DNA of 20,979 bases from a virus. The stretch is from positions 1-20,979 of the IMG/VR virus record IMGVR_UViG_3300017708_001557; one strand, written 5' to 3'. Of this stretch, positions 2,385 to 9,011 are shown in pieces (the stretch's first letter is position 1; each line of letters opens with the position of its first letter). A program made the position numbers and the translations under genes. The notes below the pieces were generated by a model. It saw only the letters and a list, made by a program, of their open reading frames with translations, was not told the DNA's origin and did not search any database.

Positions 2385-2591
2385 ATGATTAAACTAAGAA
2401 TATTGAATGAAACTGGACACACGGAATTAGAGATGGCTTCAGCAGAAGTTATTGAGCAGATTGACCAACACCCTACCCATTGGCTTTTTGTCGATGGTGA
2501 GATTGTTAGCAGAGAAAATATCACAGAGATAAATTGGGACACTGTTGAATCAGTAGATTTGACTCCCGCTATCGTTGGAGGCGGCTATTAA
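2385..2591 (+). CDS. Ubiquitin-like (beta-grasp) protein ending in GGGY
   Basis: This is a 68-residue protein that lines up with ubiquitin by pattern. Strand 1 is MIKLRILNETG, strand 2 HTELEMA, the helix SAEVIEQIDQH, strand 3 with its turn THWLFVDGEIV (compare RLIFAGKQL in ubiquitin), then a loop and the last strand VESVDLTPAIV. It ends G65-G66-G67-Y68. A C-terminal Gly-Gly followed by one extra residue is typical of ubiquitin-family precursors that a peptidase must trim. It could also be a ThiS/MoaD-type sulfur carrier, which uses the same fold and tail. I chose ATG 2385 with AGGTGA just upstream rather than the GTG at 2376. An E1-like gene lies about 2.6 kb downstream and a JAMM peptidase about 4 kb downstream, which fits a Ubl pathway. 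Confidence 0.7.
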   Translation: MIKLRILNETGHTELEMASAEVIEQIDQHPTHWLFVDGEIVSRENITEINWDTVESVDLTPAIVGGGY

Positions 2592-2631
2592 AACTAGCAG
2601 TACCAACTATATTTTTCTCAAAAGGTGTATC

Positions 2632-2910
2632 ATGCCCCTCTTCCGGAATTTTGAAGAGTGTAAGAGTATTGTCTCTCTTATGCTTGGAGATTTCTCGGAG
2701 GAGGGGCGAAAAAAAATAGAAGACACCATTATTTATTGTCAGCATTTAGATAGCGATGCTGACAAAACTTTCGCACTCACTCGTTCCGTAAAAAAACAAT
2801 TATGGGACATACCTAAAGCAGTTGATATAGGCTTTGTAGAATATCTAAAAGAAAAAGTATTGGAGATTTCAATACTTATTGAATATAAAAAGGTGAATAA
2901 TGATGAATAA
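2632..2910 (+). CDS. Unknown 92-residue helical protein
   Basis: I do not recognise the family. It appears all-helical: FRNFEECKSIVSLMLGDF, then EEGRKKIEDTIIYCQHL, then KTFALTRSVKKQLWDI and GFVEYLKEKVLEISIL. I chose ATG 2632, which has AAAGGTG 4 bases upstream, rather than a TTG at 2575 inside the previous gene. The end overlaps the next small gene by 8 bases. It has no membrane segments. It lies directly after the ubiquitin-like gene, so it may be a partner or substrate, but nothing in the sequence proves this. Confidence 0.55.
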   Translation: MPLFRNFEECKSIVSLMLGDFSEEGRKKIEDTIIYCQHLDSDADKTFALTRSVKKQLWDIPKAVDIGFVEYLKEKVLEISILIEYKKVNNDE

Positions 2911-3058
2911 TCCGGACTATGTACCTAACACTAGAGGTAGACCGATAGCAACTAGATGTAGAATATGTGGAGGACAATTAGTGAATCCAAAAGACTTCAA
3001 AAATGAAGCACATGAGAGTTGTCTCAAAAAATACAAATCGAATAAATATATGATGTGA
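2903..3058 (+). CDS. Short C2HC zinc-finger protein
   Basis: This is a protein of about 51 residues, easily missed because of its size. It holds TRCRICGG near residue 18 and HESC near residue 40, a Cx2C...Hx3C set of four zinc ligands. The tail is Lys-rich. Two ATG codons stand in tandem (2900 and 2903). The second lies at a better distance from AGGTGA at 2891-2896. The stop is followed at once by the next gene. Its size and ligand set resemble small treble-clef adaptors or DNA-binding knuckles. It belongs to the tightly spaced run that follows the Ubl gene. Confidence 0.55.
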   Translation: MNNPDYVPNTRGRPIATRCRICGGQLVNPKDFKNEAHESCLKKYKSNKYMM

Positions 3059-3063
3059 AAAAC

Positions 3064-4383
3064 ATGGATGTAGAAATAAGAATTAGAAGAAGAGGAATAA
3101 AATACGAACAAAACACTACAGTAGGTGTTTCTTTTATAAATAAAGAAACCAATGAAAAAAGAGAGTATGATGTTTTCATACCTCAAAGAGTTGCACAATT
3201 GACCCACATTTGGACTTTAAGCGACCAAAATGCAGTAAATAAAGCAGATGCTATAGCAGAAAGTCTTGCACAAAAGTTCTTTAAAGGTCTTAAAGAATAT
3301 TTTAGTGTTTGTCCCAATGACGAAATAGTTTATTCTTTTTGTGACATAGAAGTTTTTGTAGAAAAACCCTATGCTCTTAATGGCGTGAAGTTTTCATTGA
3401 AAGAATTAAGCAACAAACTTTCTAGATTTTCTTTGGCTTCTATGATAGTCGACGAAAGAGAAAACGACATAGAAAATAAAAGAAAGTCTATGAAGAAAAA
3501 AATAAGAACAATTATGAAAACTCCCGAAGATATCTTGTATGCTCTAGAGAACAGAGTACCGTTTTACTTCTTCAAAAAAGAAGATGACGACTACCGCACT
3601 ACAAAGCACGATGTTAGACTAAATCTAAAAAGAATAGGACACTCTAATTACGCACTAGAAATTAGTGATGGTGTTTGGGGTGAAATTTCGGAAAAAGAAT
3701 TGTTGACATATTTAGGTCACTACCGTCACGGATATAATCGTGGCACTTGGAAATTATTAAGTCCTTCAAAACTTTACTATAAAATATTAGGTAAAATGCC
3801 GTTAGATTCCGACCTAAAGGTTATGATTGCATTCTTATTACAAAACAGAACTCAAGACATAGTAGAAAAGAGAGCAAGGTCTTTGATGGCAGACATGGCA
3901 GAGAAATACAAAGACCGTGTTTTAATTGTCGAAGACTCCCAATACACGGCCACCAATAAAAGCAAACCAATAACTAAGGTATTAGTCAAAGGCCAAAGAA
4001 CAGATTGGCTTCTAGTTGAAAACTATTACTCTCGGAACAATAGAAACGACCCACAAAGAGTTTCTACTTATTGCTTAACTACTATAGTATATGAGGAGGG
4101 CGACACACTGCCGGATGGTTCAATAGCAAATAAACAAACAAGATTGGCCAAATGGAATGGCCCTATTTGTATAAATACAGGAGGAAAAAATCCATCGCTA
4201 GGAGACCAATTCGCATCAAGAATGTTATCTTTAATGAATGACAGTTCAGTTTCGGAAAGGGTTTCAACAATCAGCAATTATTATACAGTTGAAGATGAAA
4301 ATAGAATAAGAATACCTTTAATGGAGGAATATACAAATGAAAAAGATACCTATGATGAGATGTGTAGAGTGCGAGAGCAATAG
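3064..4383 (+). CDS. Large unknown protein between Ubl and TFB genes
   Basis: This is a protein of about 439 residues that I do not recognise. Residues 1-110 look beta-rich (VEIRIRRRG, VGVSFINK, EYDVFIPQ). Residues 135-165 are Lys/Arg-rich and helical. The middle, near 165-245, has a WGEISEKELLTYLGHYRHGY stretch. The C-terminal third has a strand (DWLLVENYY), then TYCLTTIVYEEG, then NGPICINTGGKNPSLGDQF and a helix. The isolated Cys of PICINTG, before a Pro and a helix, vaguely recalls the active-site loop of E2-like enzymes, but this is weak. ATG 3064 is preferred. A GTG at 3055 overlaps the previous stop and has no ribosome site. The last 47 bases overlap the TFB gene. Confidence 0.65.
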   Translation: MDVEIRIRRRGIKYEQNTTVGVSFINKETNEKREYDVFIPQRVAQLTHIWTLSDQNAVNKADAIAESLAQKFFKGLKEYFSVCPNDEIVYSFCDIEVFVEKPYALNGVKFSLKELSNKLSRFSLASMIVDERENDIENKRKSMKKKIRTIMKTPEDILYALENRVPFYFFKKEDDDYRTTKHDVRLNLKRIGHSNYALEISDGVWGEISEKELLTYLGHYRHGYNRGTWKLLSPSKLYYKILGKMPLDSDLKVMIAFLLQNRTQDIVEKRARSLMADMAEKYKDRVLIVEDSQYTATNKSKPITKVLVKGQRTDWLLVENYYSRNNRNDPQRVSTYCLTTIVYEEGDTLPDGSIANKQTRLAKWNGPICINTGGKNPSLGDQFASRMLSLMNDSSVSERVSTISNYYTVEDENRIRIPLMEEYTNEKDTYDEMCRVREQ

Positions 4384-5179
4384 TTTTAGTTTTGATGATA
4401 GGCTAGGAGAACAGGTTTGTGATGAATGTGGTTTAGTTTTGATAACAGAACCATTTGAACAAAACTCATACTCGTATGATGCTAATGGACAATTAGTTAG
4501 AGAAGCATGGAAATTACCTTCAACGAATGTTTCGTCAATGAAAAGTTGGGGTAAAACAGACAGGGCAATACATACAGGTATTGCCATGTGTAAGATTCTT
4601 CTTTCGTCATTAAGTTCTTCTAGTGCTTTAAGAGAAAGAGTAGATATACTCTATAGAGAGTTGTACAGAAAGCATGTATTTACTACATCTACATTAGAAG
4701 ATAGGTCGGCAGCATTAGTATATTACATACTAAGAGAATGCAATTTACCTTACACTCTAGAAGAAGTTTGTAGAGAATATGATTGCGCCTCAAAAAGAGT
4801 ATTCAAACTATCTAAAAAAATTGCATTAGCAATGAACAACACTAGTATTTTTCTAATAAATGATAGTAGACCATTTGCAGAAAAGTATGCTAGTAAAATA
4901 GGAGGTCCTTCTTTTGTATCTAAAGTTGGCCGACTAGCAGTTTATTTCGATGACTTTGTTGTTAAAAGTGGAGAAAATCTTAGACCTTCTTCACCCGCAG
5001 CGTTTTGTTACATTGTTTGTTTATTAGAAAACAGCGAAGTTTCACAAAAAACATTATCGGAAAAAACAGGTTTCTCAACTAGAACAATTTATAGAGAAAC
5101 GGAAAGACTACTAAAATTTAAAAATTTAAATAAAAATGAAATAAAAGGAAAGGGAATAGAATGGATAGAAATATATTGA
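4337..5179 (+). CDS. tfb: Transcription initiation factor TFB (TFIIB-like)
   Basis: This is a 280-residue TFB, the archaeal TFIIB homologue that recruits RNA polymerase to a TBP-bound promoter. An N-terminal zinc ribbon has C9, C12, C28 and C31 (CVEC...CDECGLVL). It is followed by a linker with REAWKLPSTN and KSWGKTD, then two cyclin-like repeats from about residue 85 to the end. The second holds a helix-turn-helix near KTLSEKTGFSTRTIYRETERLL. It is slightly shorter than cellular TFBs (about 300). GGAGG lies 9 bases before the ATG, inside the end of the previous gene. A viral TFB could redirect host polymerase to viral promoters, which is inference. Confidence 0.85.
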   Translation: MKKIPMMRCVECESNSFSFDDRLGEQVCDECGLVLITEPFEQNSYSYDANGQLVREAWKLPSTNVSSMKSWGKTDRAIHTGIAMCKILLSSLSSSSALRERVDILYRELYRKHVFTTSTLEDRSAALVYYILRECNLPYTLEEVCREYDCASKRVFKLSKKIALAMNNTSIFLINDSRPFAEKYASKIGGPSFVSKVGRLAVYFDDFVVKSGENLRPSSPAAFCYIVCLLENSEVSQKTLSEKTGFSTRTIYRETERLLKFKNLNKNEIKGKGIEWIEIY

Positions 5180-5739
5180 TAATAGGAGCAGGAGGAATCG
5201 GTAGTCATTTGATTAGGATTCTAGAAAGCGTAACAGGCGACGGAACAAAGGAACAATTGTATAGCATCAATGTTTCCGACCCCGATACAGTAGAAGAAAA
5301 GAACTTGACATATCAAGACTTTACTAAAGAAGACATAGGTAAAAAGAAAGTTCACTGTATGAAAAAGCACAGTCAAGTGAATGGTACAAACCCATATCCA
5401 ATATTGACTGAAACACAGTTGAAAGGATATGATTTGGTTGTATGTTGTGTAGATAATTTAGACGCTAGAAGGCTCTTGTATCGTTCACAGGTTAAATGGC
5501 TAGACTTGCGTTCTCAAGGGCGTAATGCGGCCTTTATTTCATACAAGGCTGACCCATCAATGTATGATACTATGTTGGCCGGTCCGGATGGTTCTTTTAG
5601 TTGTCAAGGTGATTCTTGGGATGGCTCTAATAAAGGACTACATTTCATGCATGTTGCTATTGCAGGAATGGCAGCAGAATGGATTCAGCGTTGGTTTAAT
5701 GGTGAATCAGTGAATGACTTCATGGTTGTGAATGTATGA
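5161..5739 (+). CDS. E1/ThiF/MoeB-like adenylating enzyme (compact)
   Basis: This is a 192-residue Rossmann-fold protein of the E1-like superfamily, which adenylates the C-terminal glycine of ubiquitin-like proteins or of ThiS/MoaD. Visible motifs are GAGGIGS (residues 9-15, nucleotide loop), VSDPDTVEEKNLTYQDF (D40, D42, N48, Q52), DIGKKKV (59-64) and DLVVCCVDNLDARR (91-104). A late Cys in SFSCQGD (C148) could be the thioester or persulfide residue. It lacks the Arg usual in the NxxRQ motif (Tyr51 here) and lacks the zinc CxxC pairs of MoeB. It is only a bare catalytic domain. Its ATG overlaps the TFB end by 19 bases, with AAGGGA upstream. The next gene overlaps it as ATGA. Confidence 0.85.
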   Translation: MDRNILIIGAGGIGSHLIRILESVTGDGTKEQLYSINVSDPDTVEEKNLTYQDFTKEDIGKKKVHCMKKHSQVNGTNPYPILTETQLKGYDLVVCCVDNLDARRLLYRSQVKWLDLRSQGRNAAFISYKADPSMYDTMLAGPDGSFSCQGDSWDGSNKGLHFMHVAIAGMAAEWIQRWFNGESVNDFMVVNV

Positions 5740-6329
5740 ATATATTTGCACTATCAACAGACCCCGTAGAATCAGCACAACAAATGCTAGACAAACATGT
5801 AATTAAAATGCCAACTGAAAGTTGTCAAATGTTACACACAAATTGTCTTTACTTTTTGTTTTGGAATTGTCATGGTAGAGAACCTTCATTGAAAGAGTTG
5901 AAGGAATTTCATAAAGAGTCGCACTTTAACTATTTGATGAAACCCGCTATGCTTAATCACCCTAGCACTATTTGGGCTAGACAAAATAAAGCAAATTACA
6001 TGTGGTTATACAATCATGCTATGGCACTATGTAAAGAATATACCTTTAGATATGGAAAGATTCACGGAACAGAAAAAAGAATACTGGATAGTTTTACATT
6101 CCCCTATGAAGAAGAAGACTTAACTCCTGTATCTATTGCTATGGCTGATATTTACAGACTACCAAAAGAAAAACATACTTGGGACTTTGTAATCAAGTCA
6201 TATCGCCATTATTACTTACAAGGGAAATGGGATTTCGCCTTTTGGAGTAAAAGAAAAGAACCGGAATGGTGGCCGGAAAACCACAGATATAATATGATAA
6301 AAAATAGAAAACCCTTTGGAGGAATATAA
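5736..6329 (+). CDS. Conserved phage-type DKHV/KMPTE protein
   Basis: This is a 197-residue protein with the pattern MNIFALSTDP...AQQMLDKHVIKM...ESCQML, then HPSTIWARQNKANYMWLYNH and EYTFRYGKIH. I know this arrangement from hypothetical proteins of marine bacteriophages and cyanophages. Some are labelled pyrimidine-dimer-glycosylase-like, a label I cannot verify here. Conserved Asp, Lys, His, Glu and the W-R pair suggest an enzyme, perhaps acting on DNA. The start overlaps the E1 stop (ATGA), and the next gene begins directly after the stop, so it is co-translated with the E1 and JAMM genes. It has no membrane segments. Its presence inside a Ubl-pathway cluster may be incidental. Confidence 0.7.
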   Translation: MNIFALSTDPVESAQQMLDKHVIKMPTESCQMLHTNCLYFLFWNCHGREPSLKELKEFHKESHFNYLMKPAMLNHPSTIWARQNKANYMWLYNHAMALCKEYTFRYGKIHGTEKRILDSFTFPYEEEDLTPVSIAMADIYRLPKEKHTWDFVIKSYRHYYLQGKWDFAFWSKRKEPEWWPENHRYNMIKNRKPFGGI

Positions 6330-6548
6330 ATGAAATATACAAATGAAGATTTAGGAAAAAGAATTGATTATAGCGATGATAGCGGTAGTTATTACGATGA
6401 GAGAATTGTAGAAGTCTATTGTGCAATATGCAGTTCTAGATTTGTAGGGCCGATTAGACATGCAGGTGGATTTATTGCAGGACATGAAGCGTTTCATGCT
6501 TGGGAATTTAAAATCGCTATGAATGCTGATGATGGGATGGTGGCTTAA
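6330..6548 (+). CDS. Small C2H2-type zinc-finger protein
   Basis: This is a 72-residue acidic protein with YCAICSSRF (Cx2C, near residue 31) followed by RHAGGFIAGHEAFHAW (Hx3H, near residue 52), a likely single zinc site. GGAGG lies before the ATG, which directly follows the previous stop. The next ATG likewise follows this stop. The finger sits between the E1-like and JAMM genes. In some archaeal Ubl operons, such as that of Caldiarchaeum, a small RING-like gene holds a comparable place. This finger has too few ligands for a RING, so an E3-like role is speculation. Confidence 0.65.
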   Translation: MKYTNEDLGKRIDYSDDSGSYYDERIVEVYCAICSSRFVGPIRHAGGFIAGHEAFHAWEFKIAMNADDGMVA

Positions 6549-7103
6549 ATGGGTAAAAGTGGAGAATGGCATTTGAGAGAAGAAGAAAAATCTATTCGTG
6601 ATGCTGAACAATATTGGGAATACCAAGACTCTATTGCTGCTGCTAGAAATGACATAATTCCTTTCTTACAAGGAGTATGGTCGAAGTTGTTTTTAGAATG
6701 GGGAGAAGATGCAATACACACAAAAGAATTGCAGGATGCAATATGGAAAGCATCGACGGTAATGTTACCTAATCTTGAAGTTCAAGTAGTAATTGATGGT
6801 AAAAATAGAGCCCATATTTCTTCGGGAACTTCGGGATATGTTAGTTTCTTACAACAACCTATAGGACTGAGTGTTCCGATTAAATGTTGGTTTCACACAC
6901 ATCCCTTTGGTGCTGCTTATTTTAGCGGTACTGATTGGAGTACTGTTATACCTTGGACTCCTCTAATGTCTTGTGCTTATGTTATTGGTGGAGATGACCA
7001 CTATGGTTTTTGGTCGAATCTTAGACCTAATGAATTAGAGATTAAACAAAAGGATGGTTCTTGGACTAATCAATATTATACTAAAGCAGGTGAAGAAGAA
7101 TGA
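6549..7103 (+). CDS. JAB/JAMM metallopeptidase
   Basis: This is a 184-residue protein with a complete JAMM zinc motif. H116 and H118 lie in WFHTHPFG, followed after seven residues by S126 and then D129 (FSGTDW). The upstream acidic residue may be E77 in the strand LEVQVVIDG. Residues 1-60 form a helical extension, and the JAB core spans about 62-165. Family members cleave isopeptide or C-terminal peptide bonds of ubiquitin-like proteins (Rpn11, PRTRC protein A, bacterial Mec+ and phage tail JAB). The obvious candidate substrate is the GGGY-ended Ubl at 2385-2591. It starts directly after the zinc-finger gene stop, and the next small gene overlaps its end as ATGA. Confidence 0.85.
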   Translation: MGKSGEWHLREEEKSIRDAEQYWEYQDSIAAARNDIIPFLQGVWSKLFLEWGEDAIHTKELQDAIWKASTVMLPNLEVQVVIDGKNRAHISSGTSGYVSFLQQPIGLSVPIKCWFHTHPFGAAYFSGTDWSTVIPWTPLMSCAYVIGGDDHYGFWSNLRPNELEIKQKDGSWTNQYYTKAGEEE

Positions 7104-7246
7104 ATAATATATTCAAGCAAATAATACGAAAGAAAATAATTGAAGATTGGGAAAAAGAATTTGACACTGCGTTTCTAGGAGATTCATCAAATGATGAACA
7201 CATAAAAATATTGGTTGAGGCATTAGTTAGGAGGGAAGAAGAATGA
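7100..7246 (+). CDS. 48-residue unknown protein
   Basis: This is a very short gene between the JAMM and GroES-like genes, overlapping both by 4 bases (ATGA at each junction). AGGTGA lies 8 bases before the ATG. The product begins MNNIFKQIIRKKIIEDW and is a charged amphipathic helix throughout, ending in VRREEE. The double stop/start overlap and the ribosome site make it likely to be translated. I do not recognise it. Confidence 0.6.
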   Translation: MNNIFKQIIRKKIIEDWEKEFDTAFLGDSSNDEHIKILVEALVRREEE

Positions 7247-7503
7247 TTGACACTTTAAATACTGCTAATAGCGATAGTAAAAACATGCAAGCGATTGGAG
7301 AATGGGTAGTAATTAAAAAAGACACAACAACAACTGCATCCGGTATCATCTCTGTAGGAGATAACACAGGAGTAGTTCTTGACTGTAAAGTAGATACTTA
7401 CTTGATAGGAAAGAGGGTTTGTTACAATGCAGAAAATAAACACTTTACACATGAAGGATATACCTTTGTAAAACATAGTGAATTGTATGGGGTGCTTGAA
7501 TGA
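7243..7503 (+). CDS. GroES-like co-chaperonin
   Basis: This is an 86-residue protein that follows the Hsp10 pattern: GEWVVIKKDTTTTASGIISV (compare DRVIVKR...GGIVL in GroES), NTGVVLDCK (the GxVLAVG strand), then YLIGKRVCYN and a last strand ELYGVLE (compare SDILAIVE). The mobile loop is shorter than in GroES. It is the lid that closes the folding chamber of a group I chaperonin. Its stop overlaps the ATG of the GroEL-like gene (ATGA), the usual gene pair, which strongly supports the call despite low identity. GGAGGG lies 8-12 bases before its own ATG. Confidence 0.75.
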   Translation: MIDTLNTANSDSKNMQAIGEWVVIKKDTTTTASGIISVGDNTGVVLDCKVDTYLIGKRVCYNAENKHFTHEGYTFVKHSELYGVLE

Positions 7504-9011
7504 TTCTACATGGAAACGATGCTAGACAAAAGATTCTAGAAGGAATAAATCTAGTAGCAAATACAGTAAAACCAACTCTAGGCCCACAGGCTAGAACAGC
7601 AATACTTCAAGGAAACCCTCCGGTAGTAATTAACGATGGAGTTACTATATCCAAGTATGTATCTAGTAACGACCCTTATGTTCAAATGGGTGTTCAACTA
7701 GTTCAAAATTTAGCAAGTAAGGCTCAATCTAAAGCAGGTGACGGTACAACTACAGCGTGTGTCTTAGCACAGGCTCTTTGTAATAACATTTCCGAAAAAG
7801 ACCTACAAAACATAACATCCACTAGACAACAATTACAGAACGATAGGGACACTATTCTTAGAAACTTGGATAAATACTCCAAGCCGGTAGAAGATGAAGA
7901 CATTGGTAAAATTGCTACTATTGCATCGAACAATGATGAACAATTAGGTTCTATCATAGCAGAAGTTTTCAAAGAAGTAGGTAGAGATGGAGTAGTTAGT
8001 GTAGAAGAAGGACATGGTCTGCATACTGAATACGAAATTAGAGAAGGTTTAGAGTTAGATAAGGGATTCATAACACATCTGTTTGCTAACCAAGACAACG
8101 GAGATTGTGTGCTAGAGAAGCCATTAGTTTTTGTAACAAATAAAATCATTAGAAAATTTCAAGATATTTTACCGGCATGTGAATATGCTGCCAATGCAGG
8201 TAGGCCTTTGTTTTTAATATGTAGAGACTTACAAAATTTAGCATTGCAGAATATCCTTGCTAATGTTATACAAGGCCGATTAGACATTGGAGTTATTCAA
8301 GCCCCTAATTATGGAGATAGTCAACTAGATGAGTTAAAAGATATAACTGCCATTGTTGGTGGTCGAGTTTATTCGGATGAAGCAGATGATGATTTGAGAA
8401 TAATCAATGAAGAGTCTTTTGGTTCTTGTGACAGGGTTGTAATAGACCAACTAAAAACCACCATTATTGGTGGTGATGGTGGAGATGTCAAAGAAAGAAT
8501 AGAAACACTAAGGGCCTTATACGAAGCGGGTTCTAATGAATGGGTGAAAGAAAGCATCTCTAGTAGAATTAGTAAATTAAAGGGTGGAGTTGCAGTGATT
8601 AAAGTTGGTGCAGGTTCAGCAGTTGAAATGAGAGAAACTAAAGAAAGACTAGATGATGCTCTTAATGCTACTAAAGCAGCACTAGACGGTGGCTACATTG
8701 TCGGTGGAGGATTGTCAATTATCAAAGCATCAGTTGGGCTAGGTCTAGCGAGTACGACAACCCAATCTATGTTTGCGCCATTAAAGACTTTACTTTCAAA
8801 CAGCAGTGCTGATGTCGATGAAATTTTCAAAGACATGATTCATGAAATACAACAGGATATTGGTTTCAATGCCAAGAATGGTAAAAAAGAAAATCTTCTT
8901 GAAGCAGGAATAATCGACCCAACTAATGTTACTAAGAGTAGCCTAAGTGCAGCCTTTTCTATTGCGCTAATGTTTTTAACTACAGAAGTTGCAGTGCTAA
9001 TTGAGGAATAA
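7500..9011 (+). CDS. groL: Group I chaperonin (GroEL/Hsp60-like)
   Basis: This is a 503-residue chaperonin of the GroEL type, not the thermosome type. It has GNDARQKILEG at the N-terminus, TLGPQARTAIL, then AGDGTTTA with the ATPase Asp D81, an apical domain including EGLELDKGF and IQAPNYGD, KLKGGVAVIKVGAG, and ERLDDALNATKAA with the second ATPase Asp (D386), and GGGLSII. It is about 45 residues shorter than GroEL and lacks the GGM-rich tail. It should form a ring folding viral proteins, with the GroES-like protein directly upstream and overlapping by 4 bases. Most archaea rely on group II chaperonins, so a group I pair points to horizontal transfer or to a host that also has it. Confidence 0.9.
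   Translation: MILHGNDARQKILEGINLVANTVKPTLGPQARTAILQGNPPVVINDGVTISKYVSSNDPYVQMGVQLVQNLASKAQSKAGDGTTTACVLAQALCNNISEKDLQNITSTRQQLQNDRDTILRNLDKYSKPVEDEDIGKIATIASNNDEQLGSIIAEVFKEVGRDGVVSVEEGHGLHTEYEIREGLELDKGFITHLFANQDNGDCVLEKPLVFVTNKIIRKFQDILPACEYAANAGRPLFLICRDLQNLALQNILANVIQGRLDIGVIQAPNYGDSQLDELKDITAIVGGRVYSDEADDDLRIINEESFGSCDRVVIDQLKTTIIGGDGGDVKERIETLRALYEAGSNEWVKESISSRISKLKGGVAVIKVGAGSAVEMRETKERLDDALNATKAALDGGYIVGGGLSIIKASVGLGLASTTTQSMFAPLKTLLSNSSADVDEIFKDMIHEIQQDIGFNAKNGKKENLLEAGIIDPTNVTKSSLSAAFSIALMFLTTEVAVLIEE

Follow-up and report, generated by a model that had tools for sequence, protein, structure and literature searches.

A putative ubiquitin-like conjugation cassette in a magrovirus-like genome

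The DNA analysed here, called the window below, is the 20,979-base IMG/VR record IMGVR_UViG_3300017708_001557, a magrovirus-like genome fragment. It probably encodes a complete cassette for conjugation and deconjugation, comprising a ubiquitin-like protein (Ubl), an E1, an E2 and a JAMM peptidase, a reading to which we assign a probability of about two in three. A first-pass annotation, made from the letters alone, had pointed to three of these genes, for the Ubl (2385..2591), the E1 (5161..5739) and the JAMM (6549..7103). All three open reading frames (ORFs) are present on the + strand, the E1 being recognised by Pfam ThiF and the JAMM by conservation of its motif. What computation established is the predicted fold of the Ubl, the family membership of the E1 and the JAMM, the invariance of their key residues, and the co-occurrence and order of the genes.

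The Ubl gene starts with an ATG at position 2385 and encodes a protein of 68 amino acids ending in AIVGG-GY. In the AlphaFold2 model, based on 53 relatives (predicted local distance difference test, pLDDT, 83), this protein adopts a beta-beta-alpha-beta-beta-alpha-beta arrangement, with the same element order as ubiquitin, and its residues 65-68 are disordered, which places the Gly-Gly on a flexible tail. The VIA-align list was headed by MoaD and also contained ThiS, TtuB and many ubiquitins; its Z scores of 4-5 are modest, and most rows show the expected fold. The best Foldseek E-value was 0.09. These results agree with the beta-grasp fold proposed in the first-pass annotation and argue, as a prediction of moderate strength, for a ubiquitin/ThiS-type beta-grasp protein. 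Searches with Pfam, PHROGs, NCBIfam, PADLOC and PDB profiles gave no useful family match, and the protein represents a new Ubl family.

Ubl relatives share 61-87% identity, and the Gly-Gly C-terminus was found in all 85 distinct sequences (AIVGG in 84, AVVGG in 1). Two residues follow it in 51 of the AIVGG proteins and in the AVVGG one, a single residue in 13 and none in 20; across the 85 sequences, the residues beyond the Gly-Gly are not conserved. The mature Ubl is expected to end at Gly66.

The E1 is a minimal, bare adenylating domain of the ThiF/PRTRC type, 192 amino acids long, with neither a rhodanese domain nor CxxC zinc sites. It matched Pfam ThiF at 1.1e-15, and its best NCBIfam match was PRTRC_ThiF (6.6e-14), ahead of ThiF, UbaA and MoeB. 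Its scores of 51.8 bits for PRTRC_ThiF and 28 bits for UbaA lie below the cut-offs of these models (144.75 and 450 bits, respectively). Weak matches to PADLOC E1-E2 models were also obtained. When the viral E1 family was compared by hhalign with seven plasmid PRTRC ThiF proteins, the E-value was 3.2e-21. When the viral E1 was aligned to PRTRC E1s and to MoeB of E. coli, its D40, K63, D98 and C148 fell on MoeB D62, K86, D130 and C187. The catalytic-type Cys148 (codon 5602-5604), which also aligns with the PRTRC PSCS, is invariant across the viral E1s, as are GxGGIGS, Asp, Lys and Asp. By these matches, the E1 is a ThiF-family enzyme and appears closest to the PRTRC E1.

The predicted JAMM metallo-isopeptidase carries the motif HTHPFGAAYFSGTD at 6894-6935. 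The consensus HTHPFGxAYFSGxD (HxH-x7-SxxD) is conserved across 83 distinct JAMM sequences and the upstream Glu, E77, is invariant in the family, so that the full metal site is kept. The protein matched Pfam Prok-JAB at 9.7e-4, short of the Pfam cut-off, and had no PRTRC_A match in NCBIfam. A profile built from 46 relatives matched AMSH-LP (E 0.0015), STAMBP, Sst2 and, more weakly, Rpn11 over the motif stretch. In these sequence comparisons, the JAMM resembles the AMSH/Rpn11 deubiquitinases. In 20 distinct Ubls nothing follows the Gly-Gly, and every one of their loci retains an intact JAMM together with the E1. Since it is kept where the Ubl has no tail, the JAMM does more than mature a Ubl precursor, and the cutting of conjugates (or of a bond between the Ubl and its product) is the likely reason for keeping it.

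Co-occurrence of the Ubl, E1 and JAMM genes

In 99 of 113 related stretches, the Ubl, E1 and JAMM genes follow one another in this order and share a strand; the remaining 14 end too early, at a contig or stretch end. As these stretches had been selected by the same genes, a second set of 40 contigs was selected by an unrelated gene, that of the RFC small subunit (RFC-S), which in the window lies at a distance of about 9 kb. Of these contigs, 18 extend 15.5 kb or more upstream of RFC-S, and every one of the 18 carries the Ubl, the E1 and the JAMM. When the upstream reach was shorter, the Ubl was lost first, then the E1 and then the JAMM, as truncation predicts, and in one more contig, which begins with RFC-S, the three genes sit at the opposite end. 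No related contig of sufficient length was found to have the E1 and the JAMM without a Ubl ending in Gly-Gly, a combination that would have spoken against the first-pass annotation. The cassette is apparently fixed in this archaeal virus group.

A probable new E2 family

Because known cassettes include an E2, the genes between the Ubl and the E1 were examined. The ORF at 3055..4383 (+ strand) encodes a protein of 442 amino acids with a variable N-terminal half and a C-terminal UBC-like domain (about 3847-4320). It was found in 107 loci, none of the 14 long viral records tested lacks it, and BFVD contains three full-length viral homologues (E below 1e-23). The family has one strictly invariant Cys (C369 of the model, C372 when the 442 residues are numbered, codon 4168-4170), within WxGPICIDN...GDQFAxRALALLND. 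AlphaFold2 modelled residues 262-438 as a helix, four strands, the Cys directly after the last strand, and then helices. With VIA-align, most of the 50 best rows were E2, UEV or RWD proteins, matched over residues ~262-419, and the rows for this domain include FANCL, BRE, UBE2S, UBC9, UbcH5 and Ubc13. In an hhalign comparison with eight human E2 sequences, 92 columns were aligned colinearly, with the invariant Cys on the catalytic Cys and GPICID on GSICLD. Among 300 E2 profiles with shuffled columns, 2 reached this score, and no other family that was compared did so. Taken together, these features, with their predicted UBC-like fold, give moderate support to an E2 identity of the 442-amino-acid protein, which we consider rather likely; it would probably represent a new family, with predicted catalytic activity.

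Gene order and neighbourhood

The conserved block has a fixed order, namely Ubl, a small variable gene, a 52-amino-acid zinc protein, the E2-like gene, TFB, E1, JAMM, GroES and GroEL, with extra genes inserted at some points. The E1-JAMM and zinc-E2-like gene pairs frequently touch or overlap. The mini zinc protein (2900..3058, + strand) has an invariant CRxCG...HxxC pattern (C20, C23, H38 and C41); its gene overlaps the E2-like gene in the window and in almost every magrovirus, adjoins it in 100 loci, and may encode an accessory factor. The poorly conserved gene between it and the Ubl (2575..2910, + strand), a 111-amino-acid ORF of uncertain start, has relatives in 91 loci after iteration. 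The TFB-like transcription factor (4337..5179, + strand; Zn_Ribbon_TF 1.3e-6, PRK00423 TFIIB 3.5e-11) overlaps both the E2-like gene and the E1. It adjoins the E2-like gene in 107 loci and lies between the E2-like gene and the E1 in every locus showing all three. The block is terminated by the GroES-like (7243-7503, + strand), assigned by its position, and GroEL-like genes (7500-9011, + strand; phrog_5725 GroEL 4.5e-114, Cpn60 1.1e-41).

Other families accompany these genes. The gene at 5736-6329, of the Pyr_excise/phrog_624 family, is a probable DNA glycosylase whose position in the block varies between viruses. Two uncharacterised families lie just upstream of the Ubl, at 545-784 (79 amino acids, 98 loci) and 1222-2343 (373 amino acids, 87 loci), the latter with an invariant CLCGH.

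Viral origin of the gene set

Library scans recognised a B-family polymerase (PolB), RFC-S, an ATP-dependent ligase, TFB and GroEL in the window. Magroviruses are associated with marine Poseidoniales archaea, and their reported gene set agrees with that of the window (PMC10768690), which has the PolB, RFC-S, ligase, TFB and GroEL genes, and by position a GroES-like one, of the Magrovirales set. The window thus appears to belong to a magrovirus-like genome, as judged from the gene content of ~20 kb. Terminase matches were obtained in 9 of the 14 long viral records carrying the Ubl set, which confirms its viral setting.

A cellular origin was considered and rejected. The sole matches among genome contigs were magrovirus-like contigs inside one Altibacter metagenome-assembled genome (MAG), which are likely contamination. 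This GTDB genome, 'Altibacter sp. EAC109', holds several such contigs (L193, L194 and L195) and is probably contaminated; of all copies of the set, that on L195 is the most divergent, its Ubl being 48% identical. A contig of 184,733 bases, about twice the usual size, carries two different copies (L049 and L102), and is possibly two viruses joined in assembly.

Comparison with known systems

Bacterial operons with a Ubl, an E1, an E2-like protein and a JAB were predicted in 2006 (PMC1779556), and we take operon type 6d of that study to be the system now known as PRTRC. This system of bacterial plasmids and mobile elements likewise places a Ubl, an E2-like protein, a JAB and an E1-like protein on mobile DNA, and its E1 profiles are clearly related to the viral E1 in the hhalign comparison given above. 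In addition, the Cys of both the PRTRC and the viral E2-like proteins follows a conserved Gly, and the classical His is absent from both. The gene order of PRTRC is unlike that of the magrovirus block, and the magrovirus set resides in an archaeal virus, with TFB inside it and chaperonins beside it. Membership in PRTRC was tested part by part, and the E1 alone proved related. The hhalign comparisons of the viral Ubl with PRTRC C and of the E2-like protein with PRTRC B were not significant, nor were those with PRTRC F, the E2-like protein having no detectable relation to PRTRC B, and NCBIfam gave no match either. The viral cassette may therefore be regarded as analogous to PRTRC, with a demonstrable relation limited to the E1.

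The SAMP system of Haloferax works with one E1 and no E2. It shares with the viral set a beta-grasp modifier ending in Gly-Gly, a ThiF-type E1, a JAMM (HvJAMM) and an archaeal setting (PMC4443979, PMC4895103), but it is encoded on the host chromosome, and its E1, UbaA, matches the viral E1 less well than PRTRC ThiF does (28 versus 52 bits). The Ub-E1-E2-RING-Rpn11 operon of Caldiarchaeum (PMC5654768) is also an archaeal cascade of Ubl, E1, E2 and JAMM. It is cellular, with eukaryote-like sequences and a RING E3, whereas the virus has much more diverged proteins and, as zinc protein, only the small one with CxxC...HxxC. Bil and type II CBASS (Cap2/Cap3) similarly combine an E1, an E2-like protein and a JAB, with a Ubl also in Bil. 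Those are host defence systems, and the viral E1, in contrast, carries no E2 fusion; among the window proteins scanned there was no CD-NTase.

In bacterial viruses, crAss-like phages encode gp76 (ThiF) and gp77 (Prok-JAB) in their replication module, between primase and uracil-DNA glycosylase. This pair is possibly a bacterial-phage counterpart. No Ubl or E2 was recognised with it, and its E1 has an identity of ~28-30% across 54-59% of its length. The pair was located at 6256-8654 of L207 (crAss001 gp77-gp76) and 4225-6657 of L215, where the annotations read metalloprotease and thiamine biosynthesis. An E2 identity for the gp76 N-terminus of crAss, assessed on a single sequence, found no support. 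Relatives of the Ubl, the JAMM and the E2-like protein were absent from INPHARED. Phage tail genes with Ubl and JAB domains (lambda I/K, PMC1779556) were rejected as context, the block adjoining replication genes and not tail genes. Borg elements, finally, encode numerous JAMM proteins that resemble AMSH, and a single SAMP (PMC12660748). The crAss-like pair and the Borg proteins thus qualify the absence of precedent asserted in the first-pass annotation; the magrovirus set itself was not described in the literature searched, which did not include the main magrovirus paper (PMC5434244), so that an earlier mention is possible.

Proposed mechanism and alternative explanations

Conjugation, each of its chemical steps and its targets are what we infer from these data. 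The JAMM would trim the one or two residues beyond the Gly-Gly where the Ubl has them. The E1 would then adenylate the carboxylate of Gly66 and take the Ubl as a thioester on Cys148. The E2-like protein would accept the Ubl from there on its invariant Cys and, perhaps helped by the adjoining zinc protein, attach it to target proteins, from which the JAMM could later remove it. As a guess by analogy, host transcription factors would be the first candidate targets, because TFB sits inside the block and the basal transcription factor TBP2 of Haloferax undergoes SAMP modification and proteasomal degradation (PMC4895103). With a TFB of its own, a virus might gain from the tagging of host factors. 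A bolder version, somewhat short of an even chance in our estimate, is that this is a self-sufficient cascade of E1, E2, Ubl and deubiquitinase, encoded by core genes of an entire archaeal virus lineage and with a new E2 family, which would act independently of the host E1 and reprogramme host proteins in favour of the viral TFB. The reprogrammed proteins would possibly be basal transcription factors or proteasome clients.

Several observations weigh against a complete conjugation cassette. The VIA-align Z scores of the E2-like domain (3.5-5.7) fall in a range that the tool warns may reflect a common arrangement, and the hhalign probability of its match to E2s is 3.5%. No Pfam match was obtained for 46 members of the E2-like family, PF00179 matched nothing in 14 viral genomes, and Foldseek with the 442-amino-acid model gave no significant match. 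No E3 was identified. The Arg of NLxRQ, an ATP contact in E1s, is replaced by Tyr51, an invariant column throughout the viral E1s; this is the main biochemical doubt about the E1, a predicted adenylating enzyme. Finally, the Ubl fold is nearest to the sulfur carriers MoaD and ThiS.

This last point is the reason for retaining an unlikely alternative, a sulfur-carrier cycle, in which the E1-activated Ubl would become a thiocarboxylate and deliver sulfur to a small molecule, tRNA or DNA, while the JAMM would trim the tail (as in QbsE/QbsD) or free the product (as in CysO/Mec+). Besides the MoaD, ThiS and TtuB structural matches, the ThiS-like size of the Ubl (66-68 amino acids), the Cys of the ThiF-family E1 at the ThiF/MoeB position and the one or two residues after the Gly-Gly in 65 of 85 Ubls are consistent with it. 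The E1, however, has no rhodanese domain, neither a sulfurtransferase nor a desulfurase turned up among the window proteins that were scanned, and the JAMM is isopeptidase-like and is retained with tailless Ubls. Moreover, the E2-like gene is always present. The first-pass annotation had held that the sequence could not tell protein tagging from a sulfur carrier. Both readings are kept here, but that annotation had overlooked the probable E2 at 3055-4383, which tips the balance towards protein conjugation.

Less probable still is an anti-host role, in which the viral Ubl, E1 and JAMM would compete with or undo a SAMP-type modification by the host. The AMSH/Rpn11 family match of the JAMM fits this idea, as do the proposal that Borg JAMM proteins (deSAMPylases) counter the host, with a suggested host SAMP defence (PMC12660748), and the use of Ubl conjugation by bacteria against phages (PMC10097602). 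Tag removal alone, however, needs no viral Ubl, E1 or E2, yet all four are conserved together. Tyr51 and the weak E2 statistics could also mean that the E1 has lost adenylation, that the 442-amino-acid protein is not an E2 and that the set forms a non-enzymatic or repurposed complex tied to replication or transcription, but this is very improbable, as dead enzymes would not be expected to keep invariant the GxGGIGS and the Asp, Lys, Asp and Cys in the E1, or the complete metal site in the JAMM.

Significance

A ubiquitin-like cascade in the core genome of magroviruses would amount to protein modification run by the virus with its own E1. Its very small parts, a Ubl of 68 and an E1 of 192 amino acids, would be convenient for biochemistry. 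For the question of how ubiquitin signalling originated in ThiF/ThiS-type chemistry, the cascade would supply a further branch, new E2-like family included. Magroviruses occur widely in surface ocean waters and are thought to infect abundant ocean archaea. If the proposed cassette is real, these viruses may control the fate of proteins through a pathway best known from complex cells.

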